From Synergistota bacterium (GTDB taxonomy: Bacteria; Synergistota; JAGHAJ01), in assembly GCA_021161545.1 (NCBI GenBank), contig JAGHAJ010000052.1, forward strand, positions 1-5,564: DNA of 5,564 nucleotides. Direction: 5' to 3'. The notes below the pieces were generated by a model that was given only the letters and a program-made list of their open reading frames with translations, ran no database searches and was not told the DNA's origin. Position numbers and translations under genes: made by a program. This document shows positions 49 to 5,564 of the stretch, piece after piece (the stretch's first letter is position 1; each line of letters starts with the position of its first letter).

Positions 49-1071
49 ATGAAACTTTCTGAATTTGATTATGTATTACCTGAGGAACTTATTGCACAGG
101 AGCTCGCATACCCCAGAGATCACTGTCGTCTTTTGGTGGTAGATAGAAAGAGCTCTCGGTTGGAGGAAAGGCGTTTTTACGAGATTGTTGACTATCTTCG
201 TGAAGGCGATGTAATGGTCTTTAACTGGAGTAAGGTTATACCTGCAAGGCTGTTTGGTAGGAAGGTTACAGGTGGCAAGATGGAGATACTCCTATTGAAT
301 GAGAGGGGCACTGGTGTGTGGGAAGTGCTGGTGAAGAGGGCAAAGAGGCTACACGTGGGTGATAGAATCAGCTTTGGTGACAGTGGCTTTTCTGCACAGG
401 TTATAAAGAACCTTGGTGAGGGGAGGAAACTGCTGTCTTTTTCCCCTTCAGAGCGGTTTGATGACTTTCTTCAAAAGGAAGGTAAAGTCCCTTTGCCACC
501 GTATATCCGCAGGGAAGTTGGAAGTGCCGATGATTACCAGACAGTTTATGCAAAGGTGCCGGGTTCCGTTGCTGCACCAACAGCGGGTTTCCACTTTACA
601 GAGGAGCTCCTTCGAAGGATAGAATCTGTGGGGGTAAAGGTTGTGTTTGTTACGCTCCATGTAGGACTTGGAACATTTAGACCTGTTGTGATGGATGAAA
701 TAGAACGTCACCGGATGCATGCAGAATATTTTGAGGTAACAGAAGATGTAGCAGGCCTCATAAATACTGCTAAAGCTGAGACGAAAAGAATCATTGCCGT
801 TGGAACGACTGCTGTCAGGGTTTTAGAGACGGTTGCAAATGGTTCTGGTCAGGTGGTGGCTTCATCTGGATGGACGGACATCTTTATCTATCCGGGGTAT
901 AGGTTTAAGGTGGTTGATGCCCTTGTTACCAACTTTCACCTGCCGAAATCAACACTTCTGATGCTTGTTTATGCCTTTGGTGGCACGAATCTCATGCGGG
1001 ATGCCTACGACTTTGCTATAAAGAAGCGTTTTCGTTTTTACAGCTTTGGTGATGCTATGTTGATTATTTAG
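49..1071 (+). CDS. queA: S-adenosylmethionine:tRNA ribosyltransferase-isomerase QueA
   Basis: Cytoplasmic enzyme of queuosine synthesis. It transfers and isomerises the ribosyl part of S-adenosylmethionine onto preQ1 at wobble position 34 of GUN-anticodon tRNAs (Asp, Asn, His, Tyr), giving epoxyqueuosine and releasing adenine and methionine. The 340-residue length is typical. Family signatures are nearly all present: MKLSEFDYVLPEELIAQ at the N-terminus, VIPARLFG (63-70), PPYIRR (150-155), YQTVYA (163-168), GSVAAPTAGFHFTEELL (172-188), VTLHVGLGTFRPV (201-213), VGTTAVRVLE (251-260), TDIFIYPGY (276-284), TNFHLPKSTLLMLV (294-307) and GDAMLI (334-339). The start fits the family N-terminus; only a weak GGTG lies upstream (33-36), so coupling to the preceding gene is likely. 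Oddity: the usual NDT(R/K) before VIPARL reads NWSK (59-62). No tgt follows; the next gene is convergent and overlaps the last 8 bases. The identification is firm. Confidence 0.97.
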   Translation: MKLSEFDYVLPEELIAQELAYPRDHCRLLVVDRKSSRLEERRFYEIVDYLREGDVMVFNWSKVIPARLFGRKVTGGKMEILLLNERGTGVWEVLVKRAKRLHVGDRISFGDSGFSAQVIKNLGEGRKLLSFSPSERFDDFLQKEGKVPLPPYIRREVGSADDYQTVYAKVPGSVAAPTAGFHFTEELLRRIESVGVKVVFVTLHVGLGTFRPVVMDEIERHRMHAEYFEVTEDVAGLINTAKAETKRIIAVGTTAVRVLETVANGSGQVVASSGWTDIFIYPGYRFKVVDALVTNFHLPKSTLLMLVYAFGGTNLMRDAYDFAIKKRFRFYSFGDAMLII

Positions 1072-4009
1072 GTATGTCTTTACCCTCTATTATTATCTTC
1101 AGGAATGCTTCCACTACATCGGGGTCAAGCTGCCTGCCTGCATTTCTCTTTATCTCTTCTACGGCATCCTCTATAGAGAGGGCTTTTCTGTAAGGACGCG
1201 AGGATGTCATTGCATCGAGGGTATCTGCAACTGCCATTATCCTGCTCCATAGTGGTATTTCTGTTCCTTTTAGCCCATCTGGGTATCCTCTGCCGTCCCA
1301 CCTCTCGTGGTGGTGGAGTATCACGGGAACGATGTCTTGGAGGTGCTTTACCTCTCTCAAGATATTTGCACCTGTTACTGGGTGTTTCTTTATCTCATCA
1401 TACTCTTCTTCGGTTAGCTTGCCGGCCTTGTTTAGGACTGCACCCCTTATCCCTATTTTGCCTATGTCGTGCAGCAGGCCTGCAAGGAATATTCTCTGCA
1501 GGTATGGTTCTGATATACCCATCTCCTTTGCAATCCGTACGCTCCACTTGGCTACCCTCAATGAGTGTCCCCTCGTGTAAGGGTCTTTTATCTCTATTAG
1601 CTCTGAAAGTGCCCTTATCGTCTGCATGTATGTGCGTTTGAGCTGTTCTTCTTTCTGTGATAATTTTCTGTTTGTTTCCTCTATCTCTTTCGTATAGGAT
1701 TCTATCTGCTCTATTGTGGAGCTTAGCTTGCTCTCTTTCTCTGTGAGTTCTTGTAGTGTCCTCATAAGCTCTTTGCTCTTGGCCTTCAAGTCTTCTTGGA
1801 GTTTTATGTTCTGTATCATGTCTGCGGATTCCTCTGCTGCCAGAGATAAGAACAGCTCCTCCTGAGTGTCGAATGCGTTTAGCTTTTTACTTTCCGTGTT
1901 CAATACTGCTATCACTTCGTCTCCTGCTTTTATGGGAACGGCAAGTTCACTATTAAAATACTCGTATCCACAGAGGTATTCAGGCTCCTTTGAGGTATCC
2001 GGTATGTTCTGCATCTCGCCTTGCTTTGTTGCCCTTACTATAACGCTCTTTTGGTTTATTCCTATGGTATGTCCGTAAAGTGGGGTGTCTGGTGAAGGTT
2101 TGTGTCCCTCTTTGTAGTAGGAGTACTGAATGACAAGTTTGTCACCCTCTTTGGTAAATAAGGACAGGTTTTCATAATCCCTTGCTCTGCCTATAGTGGT
2201 TGTAATCATCCTTGCAAGCTCTTGCAGAGTTTTTGCCTTGCTTCCCTCTCTTATTATTTCAAGCAGTATGTTGAGCTCCTCTGCCTCGCGCCAGAGGTTT
2301 TTTATTATGTCGCAGGTATTGAACGCTACAGCAAGGTAATTTGCCACCATCTTTATAAACTCTTCTTCCCTTTTTCCAAACCTCTCCTGAACTGGACTTT
2401 CTATATCTATTATCCCTATGACTTTATCTTTGTATATAATTGGGCATGCAAGCTCGCTCTTTATGGATGGGTCGCCCATGAGGTATCTCGGTTCTTTTGA
2501 GACATCGGGCACATTTTTGAGTTCCTTGGTTGTTATTGCCCACCCTCTTATTCCTATATCTACTGGAACTTCCTCTAAATTTTCAATGAATATCCCTGAT
2601 AAAGCTAATGGTTTTATGATCCCTTCCTCTATGATGCAGATGTTTATGTTTTTAAATCCGTAAAGACCTTTGATGACATTTACGGTCTCTTTTGCGATTT
2701 CCTCTTTTTTGAGGAGCTGAGATGTCCTTCTGGCAATCTCTGCGACGTGTTTTAACCTCTCACTCTCTTCCTGCATCTCTGCTTCTTGCTCTTGAAGTTC
2801 TTCGTTTAAGGCTACTAACTCTTCGTAAGAGGTGTGCAGGTCATCTTCGTATTGTTTCAATTTCAGCGATGCATTATTGAACTGTGCCATGGTCTTTTGG
2901 ATTTCCTTGCAGCCCTCTAACTTTACCTGATACCCGAGGTTTCCAGATGCAAGCTTTCGCAGTCCTTCTCTTAGCGTGATTAATGGGTGGATAACGGACC
3001 TGTTTAGGAGCATTATCGCTGTAATCACCGTTAGAATTAATGTGATTCCTATGGGCAGAAATTCCTTCATTAGAATGGTGGCTATTATTGGTGTAATTTG
3101 TCTGTCTGGTGTTGCTGTAAGCACTATGTGCCAGTCAAACGGGTGGAATGTCGTGAATACCTTGATTTTTTCCTCTCCGTTAAATCTGTAAAAGAACGTC
3201 CCTTCTCCCTCTTCTATCACCCGCCTTATGATTTTCAGGAAAGGTGCGTCATCTCTGGAAAGTTCTCTATCCGGGTACGCTATCAACTCTCCATTTGGTC
3301 CGTAGATTGCCGTGTAGAATCCGTAGCTGTTTGTATTTGTGATATACTTCTTTAGGTTTTCTATGAGTTTTTCCTTGAAGAGAGGAGGAATTATTCGTGG
3401 GATGTCTTCTGCATAGACGCACAGTCCTACTTTCCATCCCCAGGGGGAGAATGTCTTCCACGCTACAACCTTGCGCTCTCCTCTAAGGAAGTAAACCAGT
3501 GCACCATCCTTCATGCCTTTAATCCTTTTGCCAAAGTAAAACCTTTCTATATTCACTCCTATAAGGCTTTTATCAGGATGAAATATCGTAGTGCCTTCCA
3601 TGTCAAGTATGAAAACATATCCCCTGCCTATCTTGTATCCTTTCAGGTATTCTTTTGCAAGCCTTTTTGCATCTTCTTCTGTGAGTTTACCTTCTGCTAC
3701 CAACTTTTGGAGGGATTGGAGCATCTTTACTATACCCATTACCTTGTGGCTTAGTATCTGCTCCATTACGGGATGCGCTTTTCTTTCAGAGTACAGGATG
3801 TACTCTTGAATCTCTCCGGAGAGCAGCCTGAGGTCAGCTATATAGTCGTACATTCTCTTTATGAGTGTCTGATACATATGCTCCTTGAGGCTCGTGTAGC
3901 TTACGACGTACATAAGAACAAGTGCTGCCATAGAACCGATAAAAAGGTAGAATATTACTCTCTTCTGCATAAATTTAATACTATCATAAGATAAAAATTC
4001 TTTCAACAT
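1064..4009 (-). CDS. Membrane Cache-HAMP-GAF-GAF-HD-GYP sensor, predicted cyclic-di-GMP phosphodiesterase
   Basis: A 981-residue signalling protein. TM1 is about residues 17-37; a periplasmic region (38-313) looks like a double Cache sensor, with GRGYVFILDMEGTTIFHP near 128-145 and a second half near 229-300; TM2 is about 317-336; HAMP is about 335-388; a coiled coil spans about 385-425; GAF1 is about 425-570 and GAF2 about 588-735; a second coiled coil spans 735-795; HD-GYP is about 793-975. The HD-GYP core is intact: H815 in DPYTRGHS, H847-D848 in LLHDIGKIG, H876, H899-H901 before ERWDGRGYP, D929 in VADT, and RPYR. Members of this family hydrolyse cyclic di-GMP to pGpG or GMP; activity here is inferred. 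There is no GGDEF or EAL domain. The Cache domain probably binds a small ligand outside the inner membrane. The start is uncertain: neither ATG 4009 nor an in-frame ATG at 3970 has a clear Shine-Dalgarno, and both precede TM1. The gene is divergent from the T-box operon and convergent with queA. Confidence 0.93.
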   Translation of the reverse strand: MLKEFLSYDSIKFMQKRVIFYLFIGSMAALVLMYVVSYTSLKEHMYQTLIKRMYDYIADLRLLSGEIQEYILYSERKAHPVMEQILSHKVMGIVKMLQSLQKLVAEGKLTEEDAKRLAKEYLKGYKIGRGYVFILDMEGTTIFHPDKSLIGVNIERFYFGKRIKGMKDGALVYFLRGERKVVAWKTFSPWGWKVGLCVYAEDIPRIIPPLFKEKLIENLKKYITNTNSYGFYTAIYGPNGELIAYPDRELSRDDAPFLKIIRRVIEEGEGTFFYRFNGEEKIKVFTTFHPFDWHIVLTATPDRQITPIIATILMKEFLPIGITLILTVITAIMLLNRSVIHPLITLREGLRKLASGNLGYQVKLEGCKEIQKTMAQFNNASLKLKQYEDDLHTSYEELVALNEELQEQEAEMQEESERLKHVAEIARRTSQLLKKEEIAKETVNVIKGLYGFKNINICIIEEGIIKPLALSGIFIENLEEVPVDIGIRGWAITTKELKNVPDVSKEPRYLMGDPSIKSELACPIIYKDKVIGIIDIESPVQERFGKREEEFIKMVANYLAVAFNTCDIIKNLWREAEELNILLEIIREGSKAKTLQELARMITTTIGRARDYENLSLFTKEGDKLVIQYSYYKEGHKPSPDTPLYGHTIGINQKSVIVRATKQGEMQNIPDTSKEPEYLCGYEYFNSELAVPIKAGDEVIAVLNTESKKLNAFDTQEELFLSLAAEESADMIQNIKLQEDLKAKSKELMRTLQELTEKESKLSSTIEQIESYTKEIEETNRKLSQKEEQLKRTYMQTIRALSELIEIKDPYTRGHSLRVAKWSVRIAKEMGISEPYLQRIFLAGLLHDIGKIGIRGAVLNKAGKLTEEEYDEIKKHPVTGANILREVKHLQDIVPVILHHHERWDGRGYPDGLKGTEIPLWSRIMAVADTLDAMTSSRPYRKALSIEDAVEEIKRNAGRQLDPDVVEAFLKIIIEGKDIPK

Positions 4010-4051: not shown

Positions 4052-4079
4052 TTGACAGGGTGAAATTTCGTGTTATAAT
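4052..4079 (+). promoter_or_regulatory. Sigma-70 type promoter for the T-box/ABC transporter operon
   Basis: The sequence has a perfect TTGACA (4052-4057), a 16-base spacer, and a perfect TATAAT (4074-4079). A TG one base before the -10 box makes it an extended -10 as well. Transcription should begin at an A near 4086-4088, about 14 bases before Stem I of the T-box. Such a full match implies strong, constitutive initiation, with regulation left to the leader RNA. The rest of the gap upstream (4010-4051) shows nothing clear. Confidence 0.85.
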
Positions 4080-4292
4080 TAGTTCAAAGTGAATATTTAA
4101 ACCTGATGAGGGGAAGAGTAGCCTCATTTGACTGTATCAGAGAGGGGGGTAGGTAGGGTGTGAGCCTCCTTACGGCGGTGAGGTGAAGAGAGTCCCTGAG
4201 GGCAAGCTGAAGAAAGCTTTGTGCAAGTAGGCAAGCGGGTGACTCCGTTAGAGGTCAACGAGTGGAAGTAAGCATGTCGGCTTGCTTCTATG

Positions 4293-4330
4293 AGGGTGGC
4301 ACCGCGGGAGCCGGTAAGGTCCTCGTCCCT
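4293..4330 (+). promoter_or_regulatory. T-box antiterminator
   Basis: AGGG (4293-4296) pairs with CCCT (4327-4330). Between them is the standard 7-base bulge TGGCACC (4297-4303), whose TGGC is complementary to a tRNA 3' end of G-C-C-A. A second helix joins GCGGG (4304-4308) to CCTCGT-side bases 4322-4326 and can continue past one A-C mismatch to 4310-4312 with 4318-4320, leaving loop GGTAA. The 3' arm is the same segment as the 5' arm of the terminator, so the two folds exclude each other. Confidence 0.9.
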
Positions 4331-4349
4331 TTTGGGGCGGGGGCTTTTT
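4318..4349 (+). terminator. Intrinsic terminator of the T-box leader
   Basis: A hairpin of up to 12 bp pairs 4318-4329 with 4334-4345 (including a few G-U pairs) around a TTTT loop (4330-4333) and runs into TTTTT (4345-4349). It is the default fold when the cognate tRNA is charged, and it shares bases 4318-4330 with the antiterminator. When formed, it should stop transcription about 85 bases before the binding protein start codon. Confidence 0.93.
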
Positions 4350-4353
4350 GTTA

Positions 4354-4411
4354 ATGAAGGGAGGTGATAAATACAGGCTTGAAATTGTACTCTGCACATA
4401 TTAACATATGA
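4354..4411 (+). other. Short leader after the terminator, with an unused Shine-Dalgarno sequence
   Basis: AAGGGAGGTGAT (4357-4368) is close to a full complement of the 16S rRNA 3' end, yet no ordinary start codon sits at a good distance. The nearest is a TTG at 4379, 14 bases past GGAGG, opening a 10-codon frame that ends in TGA at 4409-4411, overlapping the ATG at 4408. A 16-codon ATG frame (4354-4404) also exists but contains the SD rather than following it. This may be a tiny leader peptide, or a remnant of a gene once controlled by the T-box. Neither is established. Confidence 0.3.
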
Positions 4412-4420
4412 AGTATTTGA

Positions 4421-4427
4421 GGAGGTG
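4421..4427 (+). promoter_or_regulatory. Ribosome binding site that sets the binding protein start
   Basis: GGAGGTG lies 9 bases (measured from GGAGG) before ATG 4435 and 6 bases before the in-frame GTG at 4432. It lies inside the frame opened at ATG 4408, which has no Shine-Dalgarno of its own, so 4408 is unlikely to be the real start. Confidence 0.85.
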
Positions 4428-4434
4428 TTTTGTG

Positions 4435-5397
4435 ATGAAGAAGTGGGTTGTAGGCTTTCTGGTGATGTTAATGGTGTTTGGTGTGTTTGGTGTTTCTGCA
4501 ATGGCTGGAGGTAATCTCAAGGTTGTTATTACTACATGGGCTGGGTATGGGCCTCTTTTCATAGCTAAGGACAAAGGCTTTTTCAAGAAGTATGGAGTTG
4601 ATATGGACATTATTACCATGCAGGACATAGGGGCGAGGAAGCAGGCACTTGCTGGCAAGAAAGTGGATGGTATGGCTACTGCGCTGGATGTCGGTGTAAC
4701 GCTTGTTTCTCAGGGTGTGCTTATTAACATGGTCTGGATACTGGATACATCTAACGGTGCAGATGGTATAGTGGCTACGAAGGACATTAAGACGGTCGAA
4801 GACTTAAAGGGCAAAAAGGTGGCACTGATGATTAACTCTACGAGTCATCTGTTTTTCCTGACGGTGCTCAAGGATCATCACATGACGGCGAAGGATGTTA
4901 CTGTTGTTCCCATGACGGCTGGTGATGCTGGTGCAGCGTTTGTTGCCGGTAGGGTGGATGCGGCTGTAACATGGGAGCCATGGCTCAGTAAAGGGGTTAA
5001 AAGTGGTAGAGGACACATACTCGTTTCCTCTAAGAGTTACCCCGGTCTTATAGCAGATGTGCTTTTATTTAGAAAGGATGTCGTTGAGGCAGATCCCAAG
5101 CTGATGGTGGGTGTGGTTAAGGGGCTGAAAGATGCGATGGCGTATTACCCTTCGCATAAGGAAGAGTGTGTAAAGATAATCTCCAAGGGGTTGCGTGAAG
5201 ATGTTAAGGACCTCAAAAACGACCTTAAGGGCATAAGGCTTTACAACTATCAGGACAATCTCAAGCTGTTTGGTGGAAAGATCTACAAGATAGCAGAGCA
5301 GGCTGCGGAGATATACTACCAACTTGGGGTTATCAAAAATAAGCCGAATCCATCTGAATTTCTTGTAGCTCAGTTTCTCAAGGAGGCAGAGAAGTAA
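4435..5397 (+). CDS. ABC transporter periplasmic substrate-binding protein, NMT1/SsuA-like
   Basis: A 320-residue periplasmic solute-binding protein of the broad NMT1/THI5-SsuA-TauA type, delivering a ligand to the permease encoded next. Residues 1-24 form a signal peptide: MKKW, a hydrophobic core rich in V, F, L and M, then the cleavage motif AMA before GG. No cysteine follows the core, so it is a free periplasmic protein rather than a lipoprotein. The mature part starts with KVVITTWAGYGPLFIAKDKG (29-48), the usual first lobe of this family, with FFKKYGVDMDI next; VEDLKGKKVAL (121-131), AAFVAGRVDAAVTWEPWL (167-184) and the helical C-terminus also fit. Start ATG 4435 is preferred because of the ideal RBS; an upstream ATG at 4408 adds nine residues and lacks one, and GTG 4432 is a close alternative. 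Known relatives bind sulfonates, nitrate, thiamine precursors or riboflavin. The T-box upstream suggests an amino-acid-related ligand, possibly linked to arginine; this is inference. Confidence 0.93.
   Translation: MKKWVVGFLVMLMVFGVFGVSAMAGGNLKVVITTWAGYGPLFIAKDKGFFKKYGVDMDIITMQDIGARKQALAGKKVDGMATALDVGVTLVSQGVLINMVWILDTSNGADGIVATKDIKTVEDLKGKKVALMINSTSHLFFLTVLKDHHMTAKDVTVVPMTAGDAGAAFVAGRVDAAVTWEPWLSKGVKSGRGHILVSSKSYPGLIADVLLFRKDVVEADPKLMVGVVKGLKDAMAYYPSHKEECVKIISKGLREDVKDLKNDLKGIRLYNYQDNLKLFGGKIYKIAEQAAEIYYQLGVIKNKPNPSEFLVAQFLKEAEK
5380..5386 (+). promoter_or_regulatory. Ribosome binding site of the permease gene
   Basis: AAGGAGG sits within the last codons of the binding protein gene, 11 bases before GTG 5398. 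It supports the GTG start that touches the preceding TAA, and implies coupled translation. Confidence 0.75.
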
Positions 5398-5564
5398 GTG
5401 GAAAAGAGAGCCCTGCTGAAACCGAGGGAAGATATCCCTCGAAGATTGTATCTGTCCTTAATGCCGTTGATGTTTGTCGTGATACTGGTGCTTTGGAGTA
5501 TAGTTACTTACGGAGGGGTGATTTCACCCCTCTTTCTCCCCTCTCCATCTAAGGTCGTTGAGAC
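5398..5564 (+). CDS. ABC transporter permease, SsuC/TauC-like (5' part only)
   Basis: The frame begins with GTG right after the TAA of the binding protein gene, preceded by AAGGAGG, and stays open for 55 codons to the window edge. A basic cytoplasmic start (MEKRALLKPREDIPRRLY, with GTG read as Met) leads into a membrane segment at about residues 19-37, then YGGVISPLFLPSPSKVVE. The FLPSPxxV motif after the first helix is characteristic of the SsuC/TauC/ThiX type permeases that pair with NMT1-like binding proteins. It should form the inner membrane channel; an ATPase gene is expected beyond the window. ATG 5461 is a poorer alternative start since it lacks an RBS. Two perfect hairpins lie within this segment. 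Confidence 0.85.
   Translation, partial: MEKRALLKPREDIPRRLYLSLMPLMFVVILVLWSIVTYGGVISPLFLPSPSKVVE
5423..5441 (+). repeat. Perfect 7-bp inverted repeat (hairpin) at the start of the permease gene
   Basis: CGAGGGA (5423-5429) and TCCCTCG (5435-5441) are exact complements around the loop AGATA. The hairpin starts 25 bases after the binding protein stop region. No T-run follows, so it is not an intrinsic terminator; it could slow exonucleases or ribosomes. Confidence 0.6.
5513..5532 (+). repeat. Perfect 9-bp inverted repeat (hairpin) inside the permease gene
   Basis: GAGGGGTGA (5513-5521) and TCACCCCTC (5524-5532) are exact complements; in RNA this would give about 8 bp around a 4-base ATTT loop. 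TTT then CTCCCC follows, too short a T-run for a strong terminator, though weak attenuation or mRNA stabilisation is possible. It lies within codons 39-45 of the permease. Confidence 0.6.

Follow-up and report, generated by a model that had tools for sequence, protein, structure and literature searches.

In a Synergistota bacterium, an arginine-type T-box leader before an NMT1/SsuA-like ABC importer suggests starvation-induced uptake of arginine or a precursor

Substrate-binding proteins of the COG0715 type are numerous and are, by default, usually annotated as parts of sulfonate, nitrate or taurine transporters. The amino acid relevant to a gene can be read from a T-box in front of it, so that one placed before such a transporter directly predicts a substrate for a clade of which at least 80 members have been sequenced. 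We found this combination in a stretch of 5,564 nucleotides (the window), which is a whole contig of a Synergistota MAG (a 1.58 Mb draft in 288 contigs, 82% complete), and the locus raises the question of which amino acid its leader responds to and what the transporter behind it imports.

Only one RNA family was matched in the window by Rfam cmscan, the T-box RF00230, at positions 4097–4333 of the forward strand. The match covers the full length of the model (1–219) with 92.5 bits and an E-value of 5.7e-20, which is 0.5 bit below the gathering score of the family (93) yet far beyond chance. It comprises stem I, stem III and the antiterminator domain, and is preceded by a sigma-70-type promoter (4052–4079, +) with TTGACA and TATAAT hexamers spaced by 16 bases, a TG before the second hexamer and consensus bases at 12 of 12 positions; three promoter-like sites were found, against 0.5 expected in shuffled sequences. 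The family match and folding both place an antiterminator stem-loop with the T-box bulge at 4292–4331 (+), in which UGGC (4297–4300) is complementary to the tRNA 3′ end GCCA. Folding also gives an intrinsic terminator at 4316–4347 (+; −24 kcal/mol, z −6.7, with no equally good value among 200 shuffles). Terminator and antiterminator exclude each other, since the bases common to both form the 5′ side of the terminator stem. The stem I domain on its own is no more stable than its shuffles, so that folding energy alone would have missed the T-box. Between the terminator and the following gene, at 4354–4411, two short reading frames of some 15 codons overlap, accompanied by a strong ribosome-binding sequence; they represent either a leader peptide or a chance occurrence.

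The gene behind the leader (4435–5397, +), 101 nt from the end of the T-box, encodes an NMT1/SsuA-like ABC transporter substrate-binding protein, which matches PF09084 (NMT1/THI5-like) with 75.7 bits, over the cut-off of 20.5. Its start is probably ATG 4435 (ribosome site 4419–4427), giving 320 residues, rather than ATG 4408, which would give 329. It is followed by the first 54 codons of an ABC permease gene (5401–5564, +), TauC/SsuC-like on the basis of a weak TauC match (E 4.4e-6). The contig stops 164 nt into this gene, placing the ATPase and any further genes beyond view, and a search of the genome assembly for the remainder of the permease did not find it. An earlier note on this DNA had described a complete T-box with terminator directly upstream of an NMT1/SsuA-like binding protein, a description borne out by the terminator, by PF09084 and by the full-length RF00230 match that the same note had proposed to look for. 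Its coordinates were right to within a few bases, with the corrections that the leader begins at about 4097, not 4101, and the binding protein probably at ATG 4435, not 4408. Elsewhere in the window, between queA and the T-box operon, the reverse strand carries a gene (1064–4009, −) whose 981-residue product, a membrane sensor combining Cache, HAMP, two GAF domains and one HD domain (HD-GYP type), is a probable c-di-GMP phosphodiesterase.

About 90 T-boxes, drawn from 61 Synergistota genomes, were placed in one alignment, and the gene behind each was identified by eye from its sequence. In the architecture common to these leaders the specifier follows GAA and one further base, and across the alignment it agrees with the downstream gene: the column reads AGA, AGG or CGN before argG, CGG before carA, ACC before thrC or thrS, and AAA or AAG before lysine-pathway genes. 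Some T-boxes before transporter genes read UGG; at three Synergistota loci such tryptophan T-boxes precede apparent ECF-type or other transporter genes. The window T-box has AGA in this column (4189–4191, +, within GAA-G-AGA-G-UCCC), corresponding to arginine in the column that reads arginine before argG and carA. Furthermore, the variable base of UGGN, which is C or U in arginine leaders and mostly A in threonine leaders, is C in the window, and the genome's tRNA-Arg(UCU) ends in GCCA, allowing full pairing with UGGC. From these comparisons of sequence, the predicted assignment of the window T-box to arginine appears strong.

Only one other T-box is detectable in the genome, at positions 5337–5572 (−) of contig C232, directly upstream of argG-argH (these genes and the TRAP transporter that follows were named from their sequences). 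It shares its architecture and AGA specifier with the window T-box. With short alignments disregarded, neither leader has a closer full-length match than the other, at 84% identity over 233 bases; the runners-up reach 74–76%. A tree of arginine and threonine T-boxes places them as a pair (100/99 support) within the arginine group. This identity, together with the sister position on the tree, indicates that the two leaders arose by duplication, although one now precedes biosynthetic genes, followed by the TRAP transporter, and the other an NMT1/SsuA-like ABC importer. The TRAP transporter (DctP-, DctQ- and DctM-like, C232 1–5303), on the same strand behind argG-argH, may be a second importer, of another class, under arginine control. 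In two Aminobacterium-like Synergistota, the argG T-box operon continues into an ArtJ-like amino-acid binding protein gene, which would again couple arginine starvation to uptake.

The arginine pathway of the genome contains argF (455 bits), argG and argH. For argB and argC, profile searches of the 82%-complete draft returned only matches far below cut-off, and for argJ no match. The absence of these three genes could be due in part to genome incompleteness; nevertheless, the lack of the argJ route to ornithine seems genuine, with incompleteness unlikely to be its whole cause, because argJ is absent from 58 of the 61 Synergistota genomes. With argF, argG and argH present and argB, argC and argJ not found, an arginine precursor would need to be imported, and such cells are predicted to require ornithine, citrulline or arginine from outside. 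The three genomes that do have argJ all belong to one genus (16 species here), which has no T-box at all; among the 61 genomes, most other genera have between one and six.

The reading that we favour, and to which we attach moderate confidence, is that the T-box marks the NMT1/SsuA-family transporter as one that is induced by arginine starvation and takes up arginine, ornithine, citrulline or a similar compound. Under arginine shortage, the AGA specifier would be bound by uncharged tRNA-Arg(UCU), whose GCCA end would pair with UGGC. The paired tRNA would stabilise the antiterminator, allowing the transporter to be transcribed together with argGH, and the transporter would bring in arginine or a precursor, with ornithine or citrulline as the first candidates and otherwise arginine or a 2-oxo/2-hydroxy analogue. 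In this proposal the T-box and its predicted specificity come from the sequence and the mechanism from the established T-box model, whereas the substrate is what we infer. An arginine-type T-box before a transporter of the NMT1/SsuA superfamily makes an amino-acid-related substrate the natural prediction, and arginine or a precursor is a plausible one.

The fold of the binding protein brings in a second candidate. Its AlphaFold2 model (pLDDT 93.7) has the same fold as TauA (Z 29.5, rmsd 3.6 Å over 286 residues) and SsuA (Z 28.5), the closest solved structures, at about 20–24% sequence identity; no classical amino-acid-binding protein was among the chains listed in the structure search, a result compatible with a ligand of that kind. 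The transporter could accordingly import taurine or a related aminosulfonate, its arginine T-box either having no metabolic link to the substrate or reflecting a general shortage of nitrogen. The best NCBIfam subfamily, SsuA_fam (TIGR01728), would suit this reading, with 156.7 bits for the binding protein, under the cut-off of 163.5, and 185.3 bits for its closest homologue, but the score against the taurine equivalog TIGR01729 (TauA), 83.1 bits, is far under the cut-off of 304.

The ligand pocket is similarly divided. In TauA, Glu106 and Asp205 hold the amine of taurine and Gln30 contacts the sulfonate (PMC6906117). We mapped these contacts, for side chains only, by profile alignment and not by structure, leaving out Asn55, Asp84 and Ser109 of TauA owing to a mismatch with the chain numbering. 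The amine-binding acids are kept in this alignment, as Asp110 for Glu106 (52 of 52 members) and Asp208 for Asp205 (48 of 52), and Thr132 and Trp176 are kept as well. In contrast, Gln30 is replaced by Trp35, a tryptophan in 51 of 52 members. The pocket thus indicates, as far as aligned residues allow, a ligand with an amino group that is not necessarily a sulfonate, although taurine-like compounds also fit the kept acids.

Homologues of the binding protein were collected by scanning one genome per species (84,980 species), which gave 80 loci at 36–50% identity, mostly in Firmicutes; the closest proteins within Synergistota are only 27–30% identical. Counting clustered neighbours (unclustered ones were identified only in part, so that sulfonate enzymes may occur in single loci), the same-strand run includes an aminotransferase in 64 of 76 homologue loci, of HisC-like (34), MocR (18) or class III (12) type, and a GldA-like dehydrogenase in 53 of 76. 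The permeases come after the binding-protein gene, and in most cases the ATPase closes the run or an aminotransferase comes next. In several Firmicutes, the closest homologue among them, a conserved operon consists of a GldA-like dehydrogenase, a HisC-like aminotransferase, the NMT1/SsuA-like binding protein, a permease and an ATPase.

These aminotransferases and dehydrogenases act on amino and hydroxy/oxo compounds. Class III aminotransferases, and GldA-like dehydrogenases in the company of aminotransferases, would suit taurine-type chemistry too, but the T-box is of the arginine type and not of the cysteine type. Given also the tryptophan in place of Gln30 and the low TauA score, we consider an aminosulfonate substrate unlikely. 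The favoured reading, an importer of arginine or a precursor, is the one towards which the residues of the pocket and the gene neighbours of the homologues appear to point, in that both suggest an amino-acid-related substrate; this agrees with the earlier prediction of an amino acid, a derivative or a precursor.

Less probable still is that the T-box serves mainly genes past the end of the contig, for example arginine-pathway genes of the same operon, in which case the transporter would be a mere passenger importing something else. The break within the permease, whose continuation is not in the assembly, leaves room for such genes, and behind argGH of the same genome a TRAP transporter does follow on the same strand. 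However, the transporter is the first gene behind the leader, and at homologous loci the run as a rule stops at the ATPase or carries on into an aminotransferase. Finally, a specifier read in another frame, as GAG (Glu) or AGU (Ser), would make this a glutamate or serine transporter, and is highly improbable: both triplets can be cut from GAAGAGAGUCCC, and tRNA-Glu(UUC) and tRNA-Ser(GCU) of the genome likewise end in GCCA, but these frames are ruled out by the column register that the argG, carA, threonine and lysine T-boxes of the phylum fix, and the sister T-box stands before argGH.

T-boxes have been reported before operons of this kind in another phylum. A 2025 survey of Bacillota describes them, as members of tandem riboswitches, ahead of ssuA (COG0715) operons, the ssuABC operons (COG0715/COG1116/COG0600) having T-box T-box arrays in 12% and T-box SAM arrays in 8% of cases, alongside TPP and SAM arrays, and reads the T-box ssuABC operons as thiamine-precursor uptake (PMC12452182). 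The pairing of a T-box with a COG0715 transporter, on which the earlier note had remarked, was therefore already on record; what differs is that the window has a single arginine T-box, in Synergistota, instead of tandem riboswitches. It is also well established that T-boxes control amino-acid ABC transporters, for example HisXYZ (PMC9413887) and TrpX (PMC9382623), where an importer is placed under starvation control as proposed here, for histidine and tryptophan instead of arginine. A search of open-access papers turned up no account of an arginine T-box ahead of such a transporter, nor of arginine genes under T-box regulation in Synergistota. The binding proteins of HisXYZ and TrpX are generally assigned to families other than that of the protein in the window.

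Recurrence of the T-box with the same specifier upstream of homologues, envisaged in the earlier note, was not observed: none was found beside the binding protein in the 80 homologue loci (pattern scan of all 80, Rfam scan of 29), and there was no other case of a T-box near a homologue in the 61 Synergistota genomes searched for both. Other riboswitches (SAM, TPP) were not consistently present beside the homologues either, the TPP matches at two loci not being directly upstream. With homologues that lack it, the T-box appears to be a lineage-specific recruitment, and what regulation says about the substrate comes from a single locus of a single draft genome. A new substrate class for the COG0715-like subgroup, which had been claimed from the T-box, does not follow from this lineage-specific element alone, but gene context and pocket lend the idea independent support. 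We put forward only tentatively, as somewhat doubtful, the broader view that the whole clade (the COG0715 importers common in Firmicutes beside aminotransferases and dehydrogenases) has as substrates amino acids or the corresponding 2-oxo/2-hydroxy analogues and not sulfonates, its Synergistota member being an arginine-precursor importer under tRNA-Arg control.

For the organism itself, the T-box of an arginine operon duplicated onto a transporter suggests that import of arginine or a precursor is switched on when arginine runs short. Synergistota mostly appear to be without the acetyl-ornithine route, so that dependence on imported arginine precursors may be a wider feature of the phylum.
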